Source: Chryseolinea sp. (GTDB taxonomy: Bacteria > Bacteroidota > Bacteroidia > Cytophagales > Cyclobacteriaceae). Taken from it: 64,000 bases of DNA. The notes below the pieces were generated by a model, which had not been told where the DNA came from, did no database searches, and saw nothing but the letters and a program-made list of their open reading frames with translations. Of the stretch, positions 47,555 to 53,848 are shown in pieces; the stretch's first letter is position 1; the number at the start of each line of letters is the position of its first letter. The position numbers were made by a program, and so were the translations under genes. The stretch is taken from contig JAICGJ010000011.1 in NCBI GenBank assembly GCA_025923195.1, forward strand, positions 1-64,000. Reading direction: 5' to 3'.

Positions 47555-49246
47555 TTATTTTTTCTGAGGCTGTTTTTGATAACTTTCCGCGAGCCGTACA
47601 GCTTCGTAAGCATTCACCATTCCACCTGTAATGCTTAACTGGCTGAAGGGAACCTCTTCACCACTCCCTGGCTGGTTAACCTTCAGCCCATCAAATTTCC
47701 GGGACGACTGGTTCAGGATATCTTTTACTTGCTCGGCGCTTAGGTCAGGATAGTAAGACCAAACCAAAGCGGCAATACCGCTTACGATCGGACATGCCAT
47801 GCTGGTGCCCTGGAGGCCTTCATATTCATTATTGGGGATTGATGAATAGATTTCGACTCCTGGCGCGAACAGGTCGACGCTTTTCTTGCCGTAGTTTGAA
47901 AATGAAGCTACCATGCTGCTGTCACTTTCCCACGACGAAGCGCCAATCTCCATCCATGTACGCATTGCCTTCTTATTCTTGTAAAATCGCGTAGGGAACT
48001 GTGAAGTACTGTCCAGATTCTCACCGTCATTACCTGAACCATGCATCAATATGACGCCCTTCTCTTCAGCATATTTTACCGCCTTGTCGACGGCTTCTTT
48101 TTGAGGTGAGTAATCCTTCCCAAAACTCATATTGATGATTTGAGCTCCGTTATCCACAGCATATATAATTCCGTTCGCTATGTCCTTATCGCGTTCGTCA
48201 CCGTTAGGTGGCACCACTCTTACCGCAATAATTTCAACGTTATCAGCAATTCCCTTTATACCGATGCCGTTCTTTCGGTTAGCCCCGATAATTCCAGCCA
48301 CGTGCGTACCGTGCTTTGCATCGCCACCTTTGACATCATTATTTCCATAGTTTTTTTCGTAGGGGTCGTTTACGTTATCACCAACAATGGTTCTAGAGTT
48401 GTATTCTGGGTTGTATCCGAACTCAACAGCATCCTTAAAATGCTCTACGCCTTCATTCAGTTGTGTCAGATAGACTCTCAGTTCTTCCAGGAACTCCGAG
48501 ACCAAAATGTCTCCTTCAACATTCTCCAATACTTTTAATAACGTTTCCTTCGCAAACCGTACAGTATCATTTGTTGTCGTGATCGCAGAGAGAGAGGATT
48601 TGGAAAGGGAATCAACTCCGTGTCTGGCACTAACGATGCTATCACAATAGCTCAGCGTCTGCAGTGCATTTGTGTACAGATCATATTGCTGGCTGAAAAG
48701 CTCGTATTGTTGTTTATTGCTCTCCACTTCCTTCTCAAATTCCGCCTTCACGATTTTCCACAATGCGTATTCTGCCTTATTCTTTTTCTTTATCTTCTTT
48801 TCATCTATCGAGTCGTACAACGGTTTAAGGCGCACATATTCACGTGTCAGCTCATACGTATCTTTGTTGACCGATCCGTCCTTTCCGCCAATAAAATTCC
48901 AGCCATGAATATCGTCGATATAACCGTTCTTGTCATCATCAAGTCCGTTTCCTTTGATCTCGTTCTCATTTGTCCATATGATCCCTTTTAGATCCTCGTG
49001 GTCAACGTCTATTCCTGAGTCAATGACCGCTACCCTAACTTTTTTAGACGGTTTTCCCTTCAGCAGCGTCTCATATGTTTTTTCCGTGCTCGTTCCCTGT
49101 AATTTTTCAGTTGCGGGGTCACGCAAGAACCAATCCCGGGCAATCCCGCTATCGAGTAGTTGAACTTCATTCGACTGTCCGAAGCCGGGTATGAAGCAGG
49201 TGGTCATTAAAAGTATAACGAACAACAACACTTTCTTATCTGTCAT
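47555..49246 (-). CDS. S8 family (subtilisin-like) secreted protease
   Basis: A 563-residue protease with signal peptide (VLLFVILLMTTCFIPGFGQS). The catalytic triad is complete: D76 in VAVIDSGIDVDHEDL, H315 in KHGTHVAGIIGANR and S482 in GTSMACPIVSGIAAL. An insert of about 190 residues between the Asp and His regions is helical and charged (KIKKKNKAEYALWKIVKAEFEKEVESNKQQYELF). No C-terminal type IX sorting domain is seen; the chain ends soon after the catalytic domain. Likely exported to periplasm or outside. Stands alone on the minus strand. Confidence 0.93.
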   Translation of the reverse strand: MTDKKVLLFVILLMTTCFIPGFGQSNEVQLLDSGIARDWFLRDPATEKLQGTSTEKTYETLLKGKPSKKVRVAVIDSGIDVDHEDLKGIIWTNENEIKGNGLDDDKNGYIDDIHGWNFIGGKDGSVNKDTYELTREYVRLKPLYDSIDEKKIKKKNKAEYALWKIVKAEFEKEVESNKQQYELFSQQYDLYTNALQTLSYCDSIVSARHGVDSLSKSSLSAITTTNDTVRFAKETLLKVLENVEGDILVSEFLEELRVYLTQLNEGVEHFKDAVEFGYNPEYNSRTIVGDNVNDPYEKNYGNNDVKGGDAKHGTHVAGIIGANRKNGIGIKGIADNVEIIAVRVVPPNGDERDKDIANGIIYAVDNGAQIINMSFGKDYSPQKEAVDKAVKYAEEKGVILMHGSGNDGENLDSTSQFPTRFYKNKKAMRTWMEIGASSWESDSSMVASFSNYGKKSVDLFAPGVEIYSSIPNNEYEGLQGTSMACPIVSGIAALVWSYYPDLSAEQVKDILNQSSRKFDGLKVNQPGSGEEVPFSQLSITGGMVNAYEAVRLAESYQKQPQKK

Positions 49247-49627: not shown

Positions 49628-52600
49628 ATGCGCACGCTTAGCCAGACAGTTCATTTGTGCTTTCTGTATGTTCTTGCAACAACATATGCAAGCGCACAGG
49701 TGCCGAGAATTGTCGTCAATTCCCAGGGACACTCAGCCAAAATTCACAAAGTCCTGTTCACGCCTAATGGTCATCAAATAATTTCAGTTTCAGAGGATAA
49801 GACTATTCGTATCTGGAGCGCTGAGACCGGAGAGATGATAAAAAAATTTGAATCCCAGATCGGAGACGGTCCGGAAGGAATGTTTTATGCCGCTGCGCTT
49901 TCTCCTGATGGCAAGTTGCTGGCGGTTGCCGGCTACCAGGTAGCAGCAGAAGCAGAGAATTACATTATAATTATCGACCTCGAAAAGGGGATTCAGGTAA
50001 GTGTTGGAATCGGTCATTCCGATGTTATTAATACACTAAGTTTTAGCGGTTCAGGAAAGTTTCTGGCAAGTGGAAGTGCCGATAAGGTAGTCAAGATCTG
50101 GAAAGTTGAGTCTGCGCCTAAACTATCCGTTATTGCTTCAATTCCGATTCCTTCACCGGTTTCTTGCGTCGCCTTTAATAATGCGACACAAGACCTGGCC
50201 GTTGTACACGAGAGCAACGATATCTTAATATACGGACTCGCTGGTCTCGACAAGGCAATGACTAAGTTTACGCCGAGAGTATTTAAGAAGCATAAAGGTC
50301 ATGTGGATAAAGTTGTTTATGCACATGATGGTGCTTACCTGGCAAGCAGCAGTTACGAAAATGAGCTAATCCTATGGAAACCGGATGGAAGTGTGGTGAA
50401 GGAGTTTGAAAACCTCGTTAATCCTATAAATGCGATTGCATTTTCCGCTGATTCCAAAATTATGGTTGGCCTTGATGTACTTGGCAAGGGAACAAGTTGG
50501 GGTATTCCGCAGGGCAACAAATTCGCAGATTTTACGGGTCACGACAATACAGTTTTCAGTGCTTCCTTTGCTCCCTCGTTAAAAGGAAATTATATCGTGG
50601 CATCGGCAGGAGGCATTAACAATGAGATTATATTGTGGAATCCCATCAATGGCCTCGCCGTTAGAAAGATCAAGGGAAAGGGGAATGCGATCACGGATCT
50701 GGCTTTTGGAACTGGTATGGAACTGTTCATTGCCTTTGAACGATCCAAGGATATGAAGCCAACGTACAAAGCTAGCTTCGATTTTGAGTCGCTGATTCTG
50801 AACCGGAATCCCGGCAGCATAACCAGCCCAAAGGAGTTGAATAAGGGTGTTTCACTTACCGGCCCTAACACCCTCGACTTACCGAAAGGTAAGAAAATCC
50901 AGACGGACGAAAATCAGGATGGCCGCATCCTGGATTACCAGGCTCTCGCTGATGGAAGCGTAATCGTAGCGAGCGATTTTTCTTTGAAGATGTTCGACCG
51001 AAACGGATATTTAAGTAAGGAATTTATTGGTCACTATGGTGCGGTGAGATCGATAACGGTAAGCGCCGATGGAAGGTATCTAGCCTCCGGGGGCGAGGAC
51101 CAGTCTATCATTCTATGGAAATTGTCTGAGACGGGCTTTGCGCCCAGCCTGAGGCAGACTTTCGAAGGCGAAGACTGGGCAGCATTCTTCAGTTCGTTAC
51201 CTATCGATTCTCTCACTGAGGAACCAACCAAGAAAGCATGGTTGGACGTTATTTCTTTTTTAAGAAGTTCCGGCGACAAGACGTATAAGAATATCGAGGA
51301 GGTTTTCAGGACTCTGGGAGAGCAGGTAATTCCTTTTGCCACCCTCTTTCTTACCGAGGATGGCGAGTGGATCTGTTGGACTCCTCGCGGTTATTTTTCA
51401 TGCTCTTCTTTAGGAGGTCAGTATTTTGGGTGGCATATTAACAGAGGTATCCATAAGCTCGCCGACTTTTATTCCGCTGAACAATATTTTGAGATCTTAT
51501 ACCGGCCTAATGAAGTCAGTAATAGCTTCAAGCAGGGTAAACGCGTGGAGGACATTCTTCTGGAGTCTGGCGAACGCATCTTTGACCTTAGCAAACTACA
51601 TCGGCCGTCTGTGGGGTTCTTTGATATCACCGTAACCACTCGCGTCACAGACATCCTGAAGTATGATCAGGGAAAATATTTTACTCAGGCCCGCACCATT
51701 CCGCTGACGGTAGACTTCTATGACGGTGGTGGCGGCGTAAAGGAGGTTAACATTTATCAAAATGATAAACTTATCATCAGTGATAAAGATGTAAAGACGT
51801 CAGGCGAAGGCCAAAAGAGATCTAAAACCTATGCGGTTGAAATGGTCAACGAGACCAACGAATTCAAGGTTAAAGTGATGAACTTTCAAAAAATAGAATC
51901 CCGTTCTGATGAACTGGTGATAGAGTATACTGGCGAAGCCATTGCGACGTCAACGCTGCATATTTTGGCTGTCGGGATCAACGAGTATAAAAACTCTGCC
52001 TACAATCTGAACTATGCGCAGCCGGATGCCCTGTCTTTTGTCGAGAAAGTGAATGAAAGAAGCAAGGTCATCTTTAAGGGCGTAAATCGCGTCGAGATTT
52101 ATGATGAGGAGGCTACTAAGGAGAATATCATTTCAGGATTTAAGGCGATGATCGCCCGGGCTAAGCCTGAAGATGTCTTTATGTTTTATTATGCTGGTCA
52201 TGGTACCCTTGATGAAGAAAATCACGATGAGTATTACCTTGTTCCGACCGACATTACAAAACTTTATGGTGATCCGGCACAGCTACATGCACGGGGTATC
52301 TCTGCAACCGATATCAAAGGGTTTCTCACGCAAATAAAATCACAGAAGCAAATCATTTTGATGGATGCTTGTCATTCCGGTGGAGCAGTGAAATCATTCA
52401 GCACCCGTGGCGTTGCCACAGACGAAAAAGCTATGGTGCAATTGGCCCGTAGCTCAGGAGTTGTCATGATTGCCTCCAGCGGTACAAAGCAACTTGCAAC
52501 AGAATTTGAAGCTCTTAAACATGGTGTGTTTACCTACGCACTGTTGGAAGCTTTGGATGGTAAGGCTGACAACGGTGACCGGAAAATAACCGTGAATGAG

Positions 52601-52720
52601 TTGAAATTTTATATGGAAGAGCGCGTACCAGAACTCACCAAGCAGTACGGTGGCCAAGCGCAATACCCTACCGGATACATTACTGGGAACGATTTCCCCA
52701 TTTCTATCCTCGAAAAATAG
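49628..52720 (+). CDS. WD40 repeat-caspase (peptidase C14) protein
   Basis: A 1030-residue exported protein; the ATG at 49628 starts a signal peptide (VHLCFLYVLATTYASAQ), better than the TTG at 49613. About ten WD40 repeats fill residues 30-510 (for example GHSDVINTLSFSGSGKFLASGSADKVVKIW). A WTPRGYFSCSSLGGQYFGWHINRG segment and a beta-sandwich region follow, then a caspase domain at about 770-1025 with H858 in FYYAGHGT and C915 in LMDACHSGG. Both catalytic residues are present, so it should be an active metacaspase-like peptidase. The propeller is probably a protein-binding or sensing module. Confidence 0.93.
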   Translation: MRTLSQTVHLCFLYVLATTYASAQVPRIVVNSQGHSAKIHKVLFTPNGHQIISVSEDKTIRIWSAETGEMIKKFESQIGDGPEGMFYAAALSPDGKLLAVAGYQVAAEAENYIIIIDLEKGIQVSVGIGHSDVINTLSFSGSGKFLASGSADKVVKIWKVESAPKLSVIASIPIPSPVSCVAFNNATQDLAVVHESNDILIYGLAGLDKAMTKFTPRVFKKHKGHVDKVVYAHDGAYLASSSYENELILWKPDGSVVKEFENLVNPINAIAFSADSKIMVGLDVLGKGTSWGIPQGNKFADFTGHDNTVFSASFAPSLKGNYIVASAGGINNEIILWNPINGLAVRKIKGKGNAITDLAFGTGMELFIAFERSKDMKPTYKASFDFESLILNRNPGSITSPKELNKGVSLTGPNTLDLPKGKKIQTDENQDGRILDYQALADGSVIVASDFSLKMFDRNGYLSKEFIGHYGAVRSITVSADGRYLASGGEDQSIILWKLSETGFAPSLRQTFEGEDWAAFFSSLPIDSLTEEPTKKAWLDVISFLRSSGDKTYKNIEEVFRTLGEQVIPFATLFLTEDGEWICWTPRGYFSCSSLGGQYFGWHINRGIHKLADFYSAEQYFEILYRPNEVSNSFKQGKRVEDILLESGERIFDLSKLHRPSVGFFDITVTTRVTDILKYDQGKYFTQARTIPLTVDFYDGGGGVKEVNIYQNDKLIISDKDVKTSGEGQKRSKTYAVEMVNETNEFKVKVMNFQKIESRSDELVIEYTGEAIATSTLHILAVGINEYKNSAYNLNYAQPDALSFVEKVNERSKVIFKGVNRVEIYDEEATKENIISGFKAMIARAKPEDVFMFYYAGHGTLDEENHDEYYLVPTDITKLYGDPAQLHARGISATDIKGFLTQIKSQKQIILMDACHSGGAVKSFSTRGVATDEKAMVQLARSSGVVMIASSGTKQLATEFEALKHGVFTYALLEALDGKADNGDRKITVNELKFYMEERVPELTKQYGGQAQYPTGYITGNDFPISILEK

Positions 52721-53253: not shown

Positions 53254-53277
53254 AGCCCCTGGAAAGGGGCTTTTTTT
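53254..53277 (+). terminator. Strong hairpin terminator after the Hsp20-like gene
   Basis: AGCCCC and GGGGCT pair (53254-53271) around TGGAAA, followed by seven T. The stop codon of the convergent HNH gene overlaps its end. Confidence 0.93.
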
Positions 53278-53848
53278 ACACTTTTACGTGGCTCCAGTTT
53301 TCACCCGTTTTTATCCGGTGGATTTGCATATCTGAAACCCTGAACTTCTTTGCGAGTGCTTTCAAGGTGGGCTGCTTTTTCGATTTGAATAGCGCAACTT
53401 TAATTTGCTTTACTTTGCTTGCGGTTAATTTTGGACCCTCATCAGGATTCATGCGAACAATGACGTTAGGGTCTTTCAATGCATGCTGAATCTGATCATC
53501 GTGTTTAACCCACTTCAGGTTTGATGCCTTGTTATTTTCTTTTTTGTGATCTACGTGTATCACAAAATTATGGCTAGAGTTAGGCTGCTTGCAAAAATAT
53601 TCGGCTACTAGCCGATGTATATAATAGTTTTGCCTCGTTTCTTCTCTGCCAATCGTTATGCTGGGATAGCCTTGTGTAAGTCTTGGCTTAAGCACGTAGC
53701 CGTCTTCTAATTTTGTTTTGAAACTTACAATCCGCCCCTTATCGGACACGGAATAACGCTTTGTAGTTGTTCCTTTCTTCAGCTTCAACTCCTTCCATGT
53801 TTCACCTGGAATAAGTTTTAGTTTTGTTTGTTTAGTTGTTTTAGCCAT
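53276..53848 (-). CDS. NUMOD4/HNH endonuclease-type protein
   Basis: A 190-residue protein. The start WKELKLKKGTTTKRYSVSDKGRIVSFK is a NUMOD4-type motif, followed by LKPRLTQGYPSITI and an HNH_3 nuclease core YIHRLVAEYFCKQP ... VIHVDHKKENNKASNLKWV. The C-terminal 60 residues (LTASKVKQIKVALFKSKK, LKALAKKFRVSDMQIHRIKTGENW) form a helix-turn-helix typical of homing endonucleases. Such genes are often mobile or phage-linked, but no intron, intein or phage gene lies next to it. DNA cleavage is plausible; target unknown. Confidence 0.88.
   Translation of the reverse strand: MAKTTKQTKLKLIPGETWKELKLKKGTTTKRYSVSDKGRIVSFKTKLEDGYVLKPRLTQGYPSITIGREETRQNYYIHRLVAEYFCKQPNSSHNFVIHVDHKKENNKASNLKWVKHDDQIQHALKDPNVIVRMNPDEGPKLTASKVKQIKVALFKSKKQPTLKALAKKFRVSDMQIHRIKTGENWSHVKV

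Follow-up and report, generated by a model that had tools for sequence, protein, structure and literature searches.

The window, which is the whole 64,000-nucleotide stretch of Chryseolinea sp. DNA that was analysed, comes from a genome of 6.57 Mb. It carries an open reading frame that runs from an ATG at 49628 to a stop codon ending at 52720 and translates into a product of 1030 residues. The layout of this protein comprises a predicted signal peptide of the Sec type, a WD40 propeller of seven blades, extra blades, an Ig-like segment, and a C-terminal C14 (caspase-type) domain. The features are as follows.

47555..49246, minus strand: divergent exported subtilase (PF00082, 183.7 bits), a conserved neighbour that we do not count as part of the system
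49628..52720, plus strand: WD40-C14 protein, 1030 residues with stop (open frame; Pfam matches; orthologs align end to end)
49628..49696, plus strand: predicted signal peptide, residues 1-23 (hydrophobic stretch; ASA before Q24, judged by eye)
49724..50650, plus strand: seven-bladed WD40 propeller, residues 33-341 (AlphaFold2 model and structural matches)
50651..51121, plus strand: further propeller blades, residues 342-498 (strands in the AlphaFold2 model)
51320..51517, plus strand: conserved module, residues 565-630, with WTPxGYF, GWHxNRG and ADFY motifs (highly conserved in 16 orthologs)
51695..51937, plus strand: Ig-like beta segment, residues 690-770 (strands in the model; named from the strand pattern, with no database match)
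51950..52717, plus strand: C14 (caspase-type) domain, residues 775-1030 (PF00656)
52199..52201, plus strand: catalytic His858 (43/43 relatives)
52370..52372, plus strand: catalytic Cys915 (43/43 relatives)
52403..52453, plus strand: low-confidence loop, residues 926-942, with Arg927 as a candidate self-cleavage site (pLDDT <50; putative function)

Pfam places the protein among WD40 proteins (PF00400, 125.5 bits against a cut-off of 27) and among C14 peptidases (PF00656, 64.8 bits against a cut-off of 21.4). The latter match spans residues 780-1015. Orthocaspases have a p20 domain and lack a p10 domain, and of the Pfam matches listed here (25 of 39) PF00656 alone covers this region. An AlphaFold2 model built from 43 sequences has a mean pLDDT of 83.3, and residues 35-349 superpose on the seven-bladed propeller 7bie_A with a Z score of 37.8 and an rmsd of 1.7 over 285 residues (Z 35.0-37.8 for the propeller matches among those listed). 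The first-pass annotation of this DNA counted about ten WD40 repeats, which seems a fair description of a modelled seven-bladed propeller with blades continuing to residue 498. The fold search with the whole model was dominated by propellers and barely probed the C14 and Ig-like parts by structure. By sequence, the solved structures nearest to the C14 domain are metacaspases (7qp0, E 0.00039; 4af8, E 0.0006). The observation of a WD40-caspase is confirmed, and the type of protein is one already known.

The catalytic pair assigned in that annotation, H858 and C915, is intact, with both residues found at those numbers. A cysteine that varied among close relatives had been named there as grounds for rejection. 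However, H858, D913 and C915 are invariant in all 16 orthologs, and H858 and C915 are likewise present in 43/43 aligned wider relatives. The acidic residues D800 and D913 are also invariant in the 43 relatives, and we take them to have a role in the S1 pocket, after metacaspase structures. Within the C14 domain, pLDDT drops below 50 only in the loop behind the catalytic cysteine (residues 926-942). Its Arg927 is present in 42/43 relatives and the next residue is Gly or Ala, again in 42/43. Published reports describe cleavage after basic residues by prokaryotic C14 proteases, and self-processing by one orthocaspase (PMC6426788; PMC5756287, accessible text). By analogy, Arg927 would be a candidate self-cleavage site.

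At the N-terminus, a hydrophobic stretch at about residues 8-18 precedes ASA|Q, which by eye is a normal signal-peptidase site. The N-terminus is hydrophobic but variable in all 16 aligned orthologs, also as judged by eye. A crude rule, which asks for a hydrophobic stretch and a small-x-small site, is passed by 68 of the 79 WD40-caspase loci from named genomes among the matches listed, and in seven of the 11 failures the frame starts at a contig edge. Among the controls, RpoB frames pass in 0/29 cases and internal stretches of the same proteins in 1/77, but shuffled N-termini pass in 41%, a poor outcome for this control, such that the rule is supportive rather than decisive. The predicted signal peptide thus favors the earlier claim that the WD40-caspase is exported. 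The accompanying view of an exported form as an exception finds no support in the same count of 68/79. In a 2012 survey, WD40 is the additional domain met most often in prokaryotic C14 proteins, and some of these proteins are said to bear likely signal peptides (PMC3501461, accessible text). Because 68 of the 79 listed loci pass the rule, exported WD40-caspases are, as far as such predictions reach, a common kind in Bacteroidota. The 79 relatives are mostly from this phylum, with a few from Verrucomicrobiota and others.

A search of the caspase against NCBIfam at E <= 0.01 gave two matches, neither of them a type IX secretion system (T9SS) sorting domain, and in the orthologs little sequence follows the C14 domain, leaving the protein outside the definition of T9SS cargo. 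The caspase would be a periplasmic protein, exported by Sec and without a T9SS signal. The nearest match in the same genus is at 85% (G197), and orthologs with 49-84% identity are spread over Cyclobacteriaceae as GTDB defines the family, with Pseudochryseolinea flava, Fulvivirga and Marivirga among the carriers. The genome of the window has a second WD40-caspase (L089, G000:C5:21686-24712) of about 1083 amino acids with a signal-peptide-like start. Its type is more distant and found widely in Bacteroidota, and no match to the PorP profile described below lies beside it. Two WD40-caspase genes in tandem are found in Marinifilum (L119, L120) and in Coraliomargarita (L155).

The secreted subtilase reported to lie divergently is real, as the Pfam score in the feature list attests. 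Clustering of the genes around 16 orthologs gives two recurrent neighbours, namely the divergent subtilase (8/16) and a gene for a PorP/SprF-like carrier (7/16), the latter often accompanied by genes for two further proteins, one of the CHU_C kind and one S74 fibre-like. In a named set of 21 ortholog loci, reduced to 19 by excluding the truncated L111 and L112, the subtilase is adjacent at 12/19 and the PorP at 8/19, with some of the remaining loci ending too early to judge. The first-pass annotation had proposed a look for conserved neighbours, and both genes do recur. However, the subtilase is not specific to the caspase, for it occurs in 193 of 390 genomes of the family, and we rejected it as a specific partner. 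Judging from gene content, the informative partner of the caspase is the PorP/SprF-like carrier, which is encoded outside the window.

At two loci (L080 and L196), genes for cargo, PorP and caspase follow one another on one strand. At another locus (L082:41-8369), two PorPs of the basic-tail kind described below stand on either side of a CHU_C gene and an S74 fibre-like gene, an arrangement suggestive of carrier duplication. Just downstream of the caspase gene in the window, at 53276-53848 on the minus strand, lies a gene for a NUMOD4/HNH protein, possibly a homing-type endonuclease, that is kept in the same-genus relative L078.

The carriers linked to the caspase have long and basic C-terminal tails, and their genes come after genes for T9SS type-B (CHU_C) cargo. 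Two basic-tail PorPs match PF11751 (PorP/SprF) with 147.9 and 155.2 bits against a cut-off of 22.3, and a PorP model has 14 strands followed by a low-confidence tail (mean pLDDT 63.1). The subfamily was defined from the barrel alone. We compared the tails of 70 of 98 matches, having dropped frames truncated where a contig or locus stops, those in which the end of the profile was unreached, and duplicate tails. The 27 distinct basic tails have 44-142 residues (median 96) and a net charge of +16 to +39 (median +29). By comparison, the 43 other distinct PorP tails, one from G171 (L196) and the rest from G000, G078, G194, G251 and G296, have a median of 18 residues and a net charge of -6 to +8 (median +2), the few long ones not being basic. 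Cysteine is present in 0/27 basic tails and 18/43 others.

Charge is kept in the basic tails while their sequence varies. One site stands out, and it was spotted only after the tails had been inspected. The motif RRKT lies 19 or 22 residues past the last barrel strand in 22/23 tails from caspase genomes, and the four tails from PorP-only genomes have RRKS, RRKS, RRKP or no such site at this position. Counted anywhere in the tail, RRKT is present in 22/23 versus 1/4 (p 0.005, for a motif chosen post hoc). The C-terminal tail of the PorP-like protein SprF is reported to be periplasmic and linked to GldK by a disulfide (PMC12635249, accessible text). By analogy, the basic PorP tail should be periplasmic, in the same compartment as a Sec-exported caspase.

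To score co-occurrence, the same genomes were searched with the caspase and with a profile (A2) built from seven PorPs linked to it. A first set of 148 genomes gave 17 with the caspase (E <= 2.2e-230) and 21 with the basic-tail PorP (E <= 1e-75), which was present in 17/17 caspase genomes. All of these matches reappear in a draw of 390 Cyclobacteriaceae genomes, where the caspase is found in 44 and the PorP in 48. Both genes are present in 41 genomes, the caspase only in three, the PorP only in seven, and neither in 339. The three caspase-only genomes are incomplete (G541, 78%; G560, 89%; G566, 78% complete). Without the seven source genomes of the profile, the PorP is present in 34/37 caspase genomes versus 7/346 others.

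Caspase and PorP go together within the genera g1, g2, g4, g128 and g163, where a test stratified by genus gives p ~2e-15, a value that treats non-independent species as independent and draws on genomes with a printed genus, such that negatives of unlisted genus are missing. An RpoB tree of 29 genomes (30 were requested, and G280 gave no RpoB) displays several separate changes. Seven supported independent pairs on this tree differ in the caspase, and the PorP differs in the same way in 4-5, in the opposite way in none, and not at all in 2-3. The resulting p of 0.0625-0.125 is above 0.05, and the test was made without G195, whose PorP state was then undetermined and which was later seen to have the PorP without the caspase. 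A broken caspase remnant, covering query residues 683-1030 in two frames, is present in G144 (L282:8725-9739). This genome has no basic-tail PorP match and is sister on the RpoB tree to two genomes that have both genes.

Among the 41 genomes with both genes, 15 have them separated by 1-236 bp, of which 14 are tail-to-tail and one same-strand, and in a sixteenth they are 2.3 kb apart. Marivirga sericea DSM 4125 (L110) is one of the genomes with adjacent genes, and Pseudochryseolinea flava likewise has both. This choice of neighbour is made among many PorPs, with 9-16 per genome in each of 14 genomes tested. In the genome of the window the two genes are on separate contigs, and its basic-tail PorP gene (G000:C41:31704-32828) comes directly after a CHU_C cargo gene. 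As a negative control, none of 62 distant WD40-caspase loci (L089-L092 and L115-L172, some with short flanks) has a PorP-profile match at E <= 1e-8. The same scan returned a match at L093, which is the L196 locus. No PorP is found beside other relatives (L178-L195) at E <= 1e-4, and none adjoins the relatives of family f19. At L196, a distant operon has the order cargo, PorP, caspase, with a caspase 30% identical to ours and a PorP whose tail is short (26 residues, net +2). This operon stands alone because only one of 19 genomes of the G171 family has a close relative.

A partnership between caspase and carrier is well supported by this comparative genomics, and we regard it as probable. We propose that the caspase acts in the periplasm as a C14 protease partnered with the PorP/SprF-like carrier, whose long basic tail it probably grips or cuts, a reading with an even chance of being right as a whole. 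The propeller domains would dock on the periplasmic side of the carrier, and the C14 domain would mature through self-cleavage at Arg927. The matured domain might then cut the carrier tail at Arg/Lys sites, of which RRKT is the most conserved, and the cut may release, retain or license the complex of carrier and cargo. That the Arg/Lys-rich tail is the substrate is a tentative element of this proposal. More speculative again is the notion of a dedicated T9SS processing protease that trims the tail of its own carrier and thereby controls how a type-B surface protein is displayed, anchored or moved. Several observations speak against the proposed partnership with tail cutting, including the short tail at L196, the absence of an adjoining PorP in family f19, the seven PorP-only and three caspase-only genomes, the pairs test above 0.05, and the unlinked genes in the genome of the window. 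Moreover, the mature caspase (1006 residues) has a net charge of only -18, a mild acidity in which no strong charge match with the tail is seen.

A rival reading is a scaffold role, in which the caspase is a PorE-like periplasmic partner whose propellers grip the basic tail while the protease cuts something else, such as cargo, an envelope neighbour or itself. PorE is described as a periplasmic propeller protein that binds PorP, and Flavobacterium johnsoniae as having six porP-like genes that adjoin porE-like genes (PMC9143113, accessible text). A grip on charge would fit tails that hold their basic character while varying in sequence, and the PorP at L196, with its short tail, requires no cleavage. 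However, catalytic residues that are invariant in 43/43 relatives indicate that catalysis matters, and the conserved RRKT looks like more than a charge patch. We consider a scaffold unlikely. Less probable still is a general periplasmic protease for envelope quality control or stress, whose link to the PorP would reflect shared lineage and synteny kept from an ancestor rather than function. A PorP is missing beside many exported WD40-caspases, as the 62 distant loci illustrate, and the RpoB-tree pairs test is not significant. However, caspase and PorP are gained or lost together within genera g2, g4 and g128 even where they are far apart, and therefore synteny alone is insufficient. The subtilase, which is more often adjacent, shows no such restriction to caspase genomes. 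A defence or cell-death effector, like the cytoplasmic bacterial caspase-type effectors, is very improbable. The C14 domain is matched in part by a caspase model of PADLOC, with 66.3 bits over positions 2-142 of the 453 in the profile, but export is predicted, the EACC1-associated caspase model NF047832 scores below its cut-off (90.4 versus 140 bits), a viral collection gave five weak matches only, all C14-only, and a Pfam scan of eight neighbours recognised no defence gene, in line with the first-pass annotation, so that a defence island finds no support from any of these sources.

If tail cutting by the caspase is correct, a bacterial caspase homolog would have a role other than cell death and a named substrate. 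The substrates of these proteins are poorly known, and a 2017 review counted only one orthocaspase biochemically characterised by then (PMC5756287, accessible text). Comparative genomics here narrows the search to one partner and one stretch of it, and suggests that the machinery with which Bacteroidota carry out type IX secretion and surface display includes a layer of proteolysis. The literature searched, with most subscription papers lying outside it, yielded no link of a caspase to PorP and SprF, nor to type IX secretion and WD40, and no published tie between a WD40-caspase and a specific T9SS carrier.

The closest known proteins are the prokaryotic WD40-Peptidase_C14 proteins (orthocaspases, or 'bacterial metacaspases'), which have the same His-Cys C14 domain and WD40 repeats and, in some cases, likely signal peptides as predicted here. 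The accessible text of the 2012 survey reports no PorP or T9SS link for them, whereas the present ortholog tracks one PorP subfamily (PMC3501461). The caspase also resembles PorE in being a predicted periplasmic beta-propeller protein that would partner a PorP-like barrel, and PorP is reported to bind both PorE and type-B cargo (PMC9143113, accessible text). Unlike PorE, it ends in a C14 protease rather than in an OmpA-like peptidoglycan-binding domain. At a locus of family f19 (L188:1414-10904), four consecutive genes of the same strand encode a PD40-CarboxypepD_reg-OmpA protein, a protein that Pfam does not match, a TPR-caspase and a WD40-caspase, which is possibly a second link of exported caspases with PorE-like proteins.

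PorU belongs to the cysteine proteases of clan CD, and PorZ is a propeller protein. PorU is reported to cut T9SS signals (PMC12618676, accessible text). The two, which form part of the type IX attachment complex, serve A-LPS-anchored substrates, and we liken them to the caspase by description only. SprF and SprB offer the nearest parallel for the carrier, as a PorP-like protein with a functional periplasmic C-terminal tail and a type-B cargo (PMC12635249; PMC9143113, accessible text). However, the SprF tail is joined to GldK through a pair of cysteines, whereas the basic tails are free of cysteine, and cutting by the caspase, if true, would be a cleavage-controlled counterpart to the SprF disulfide link.
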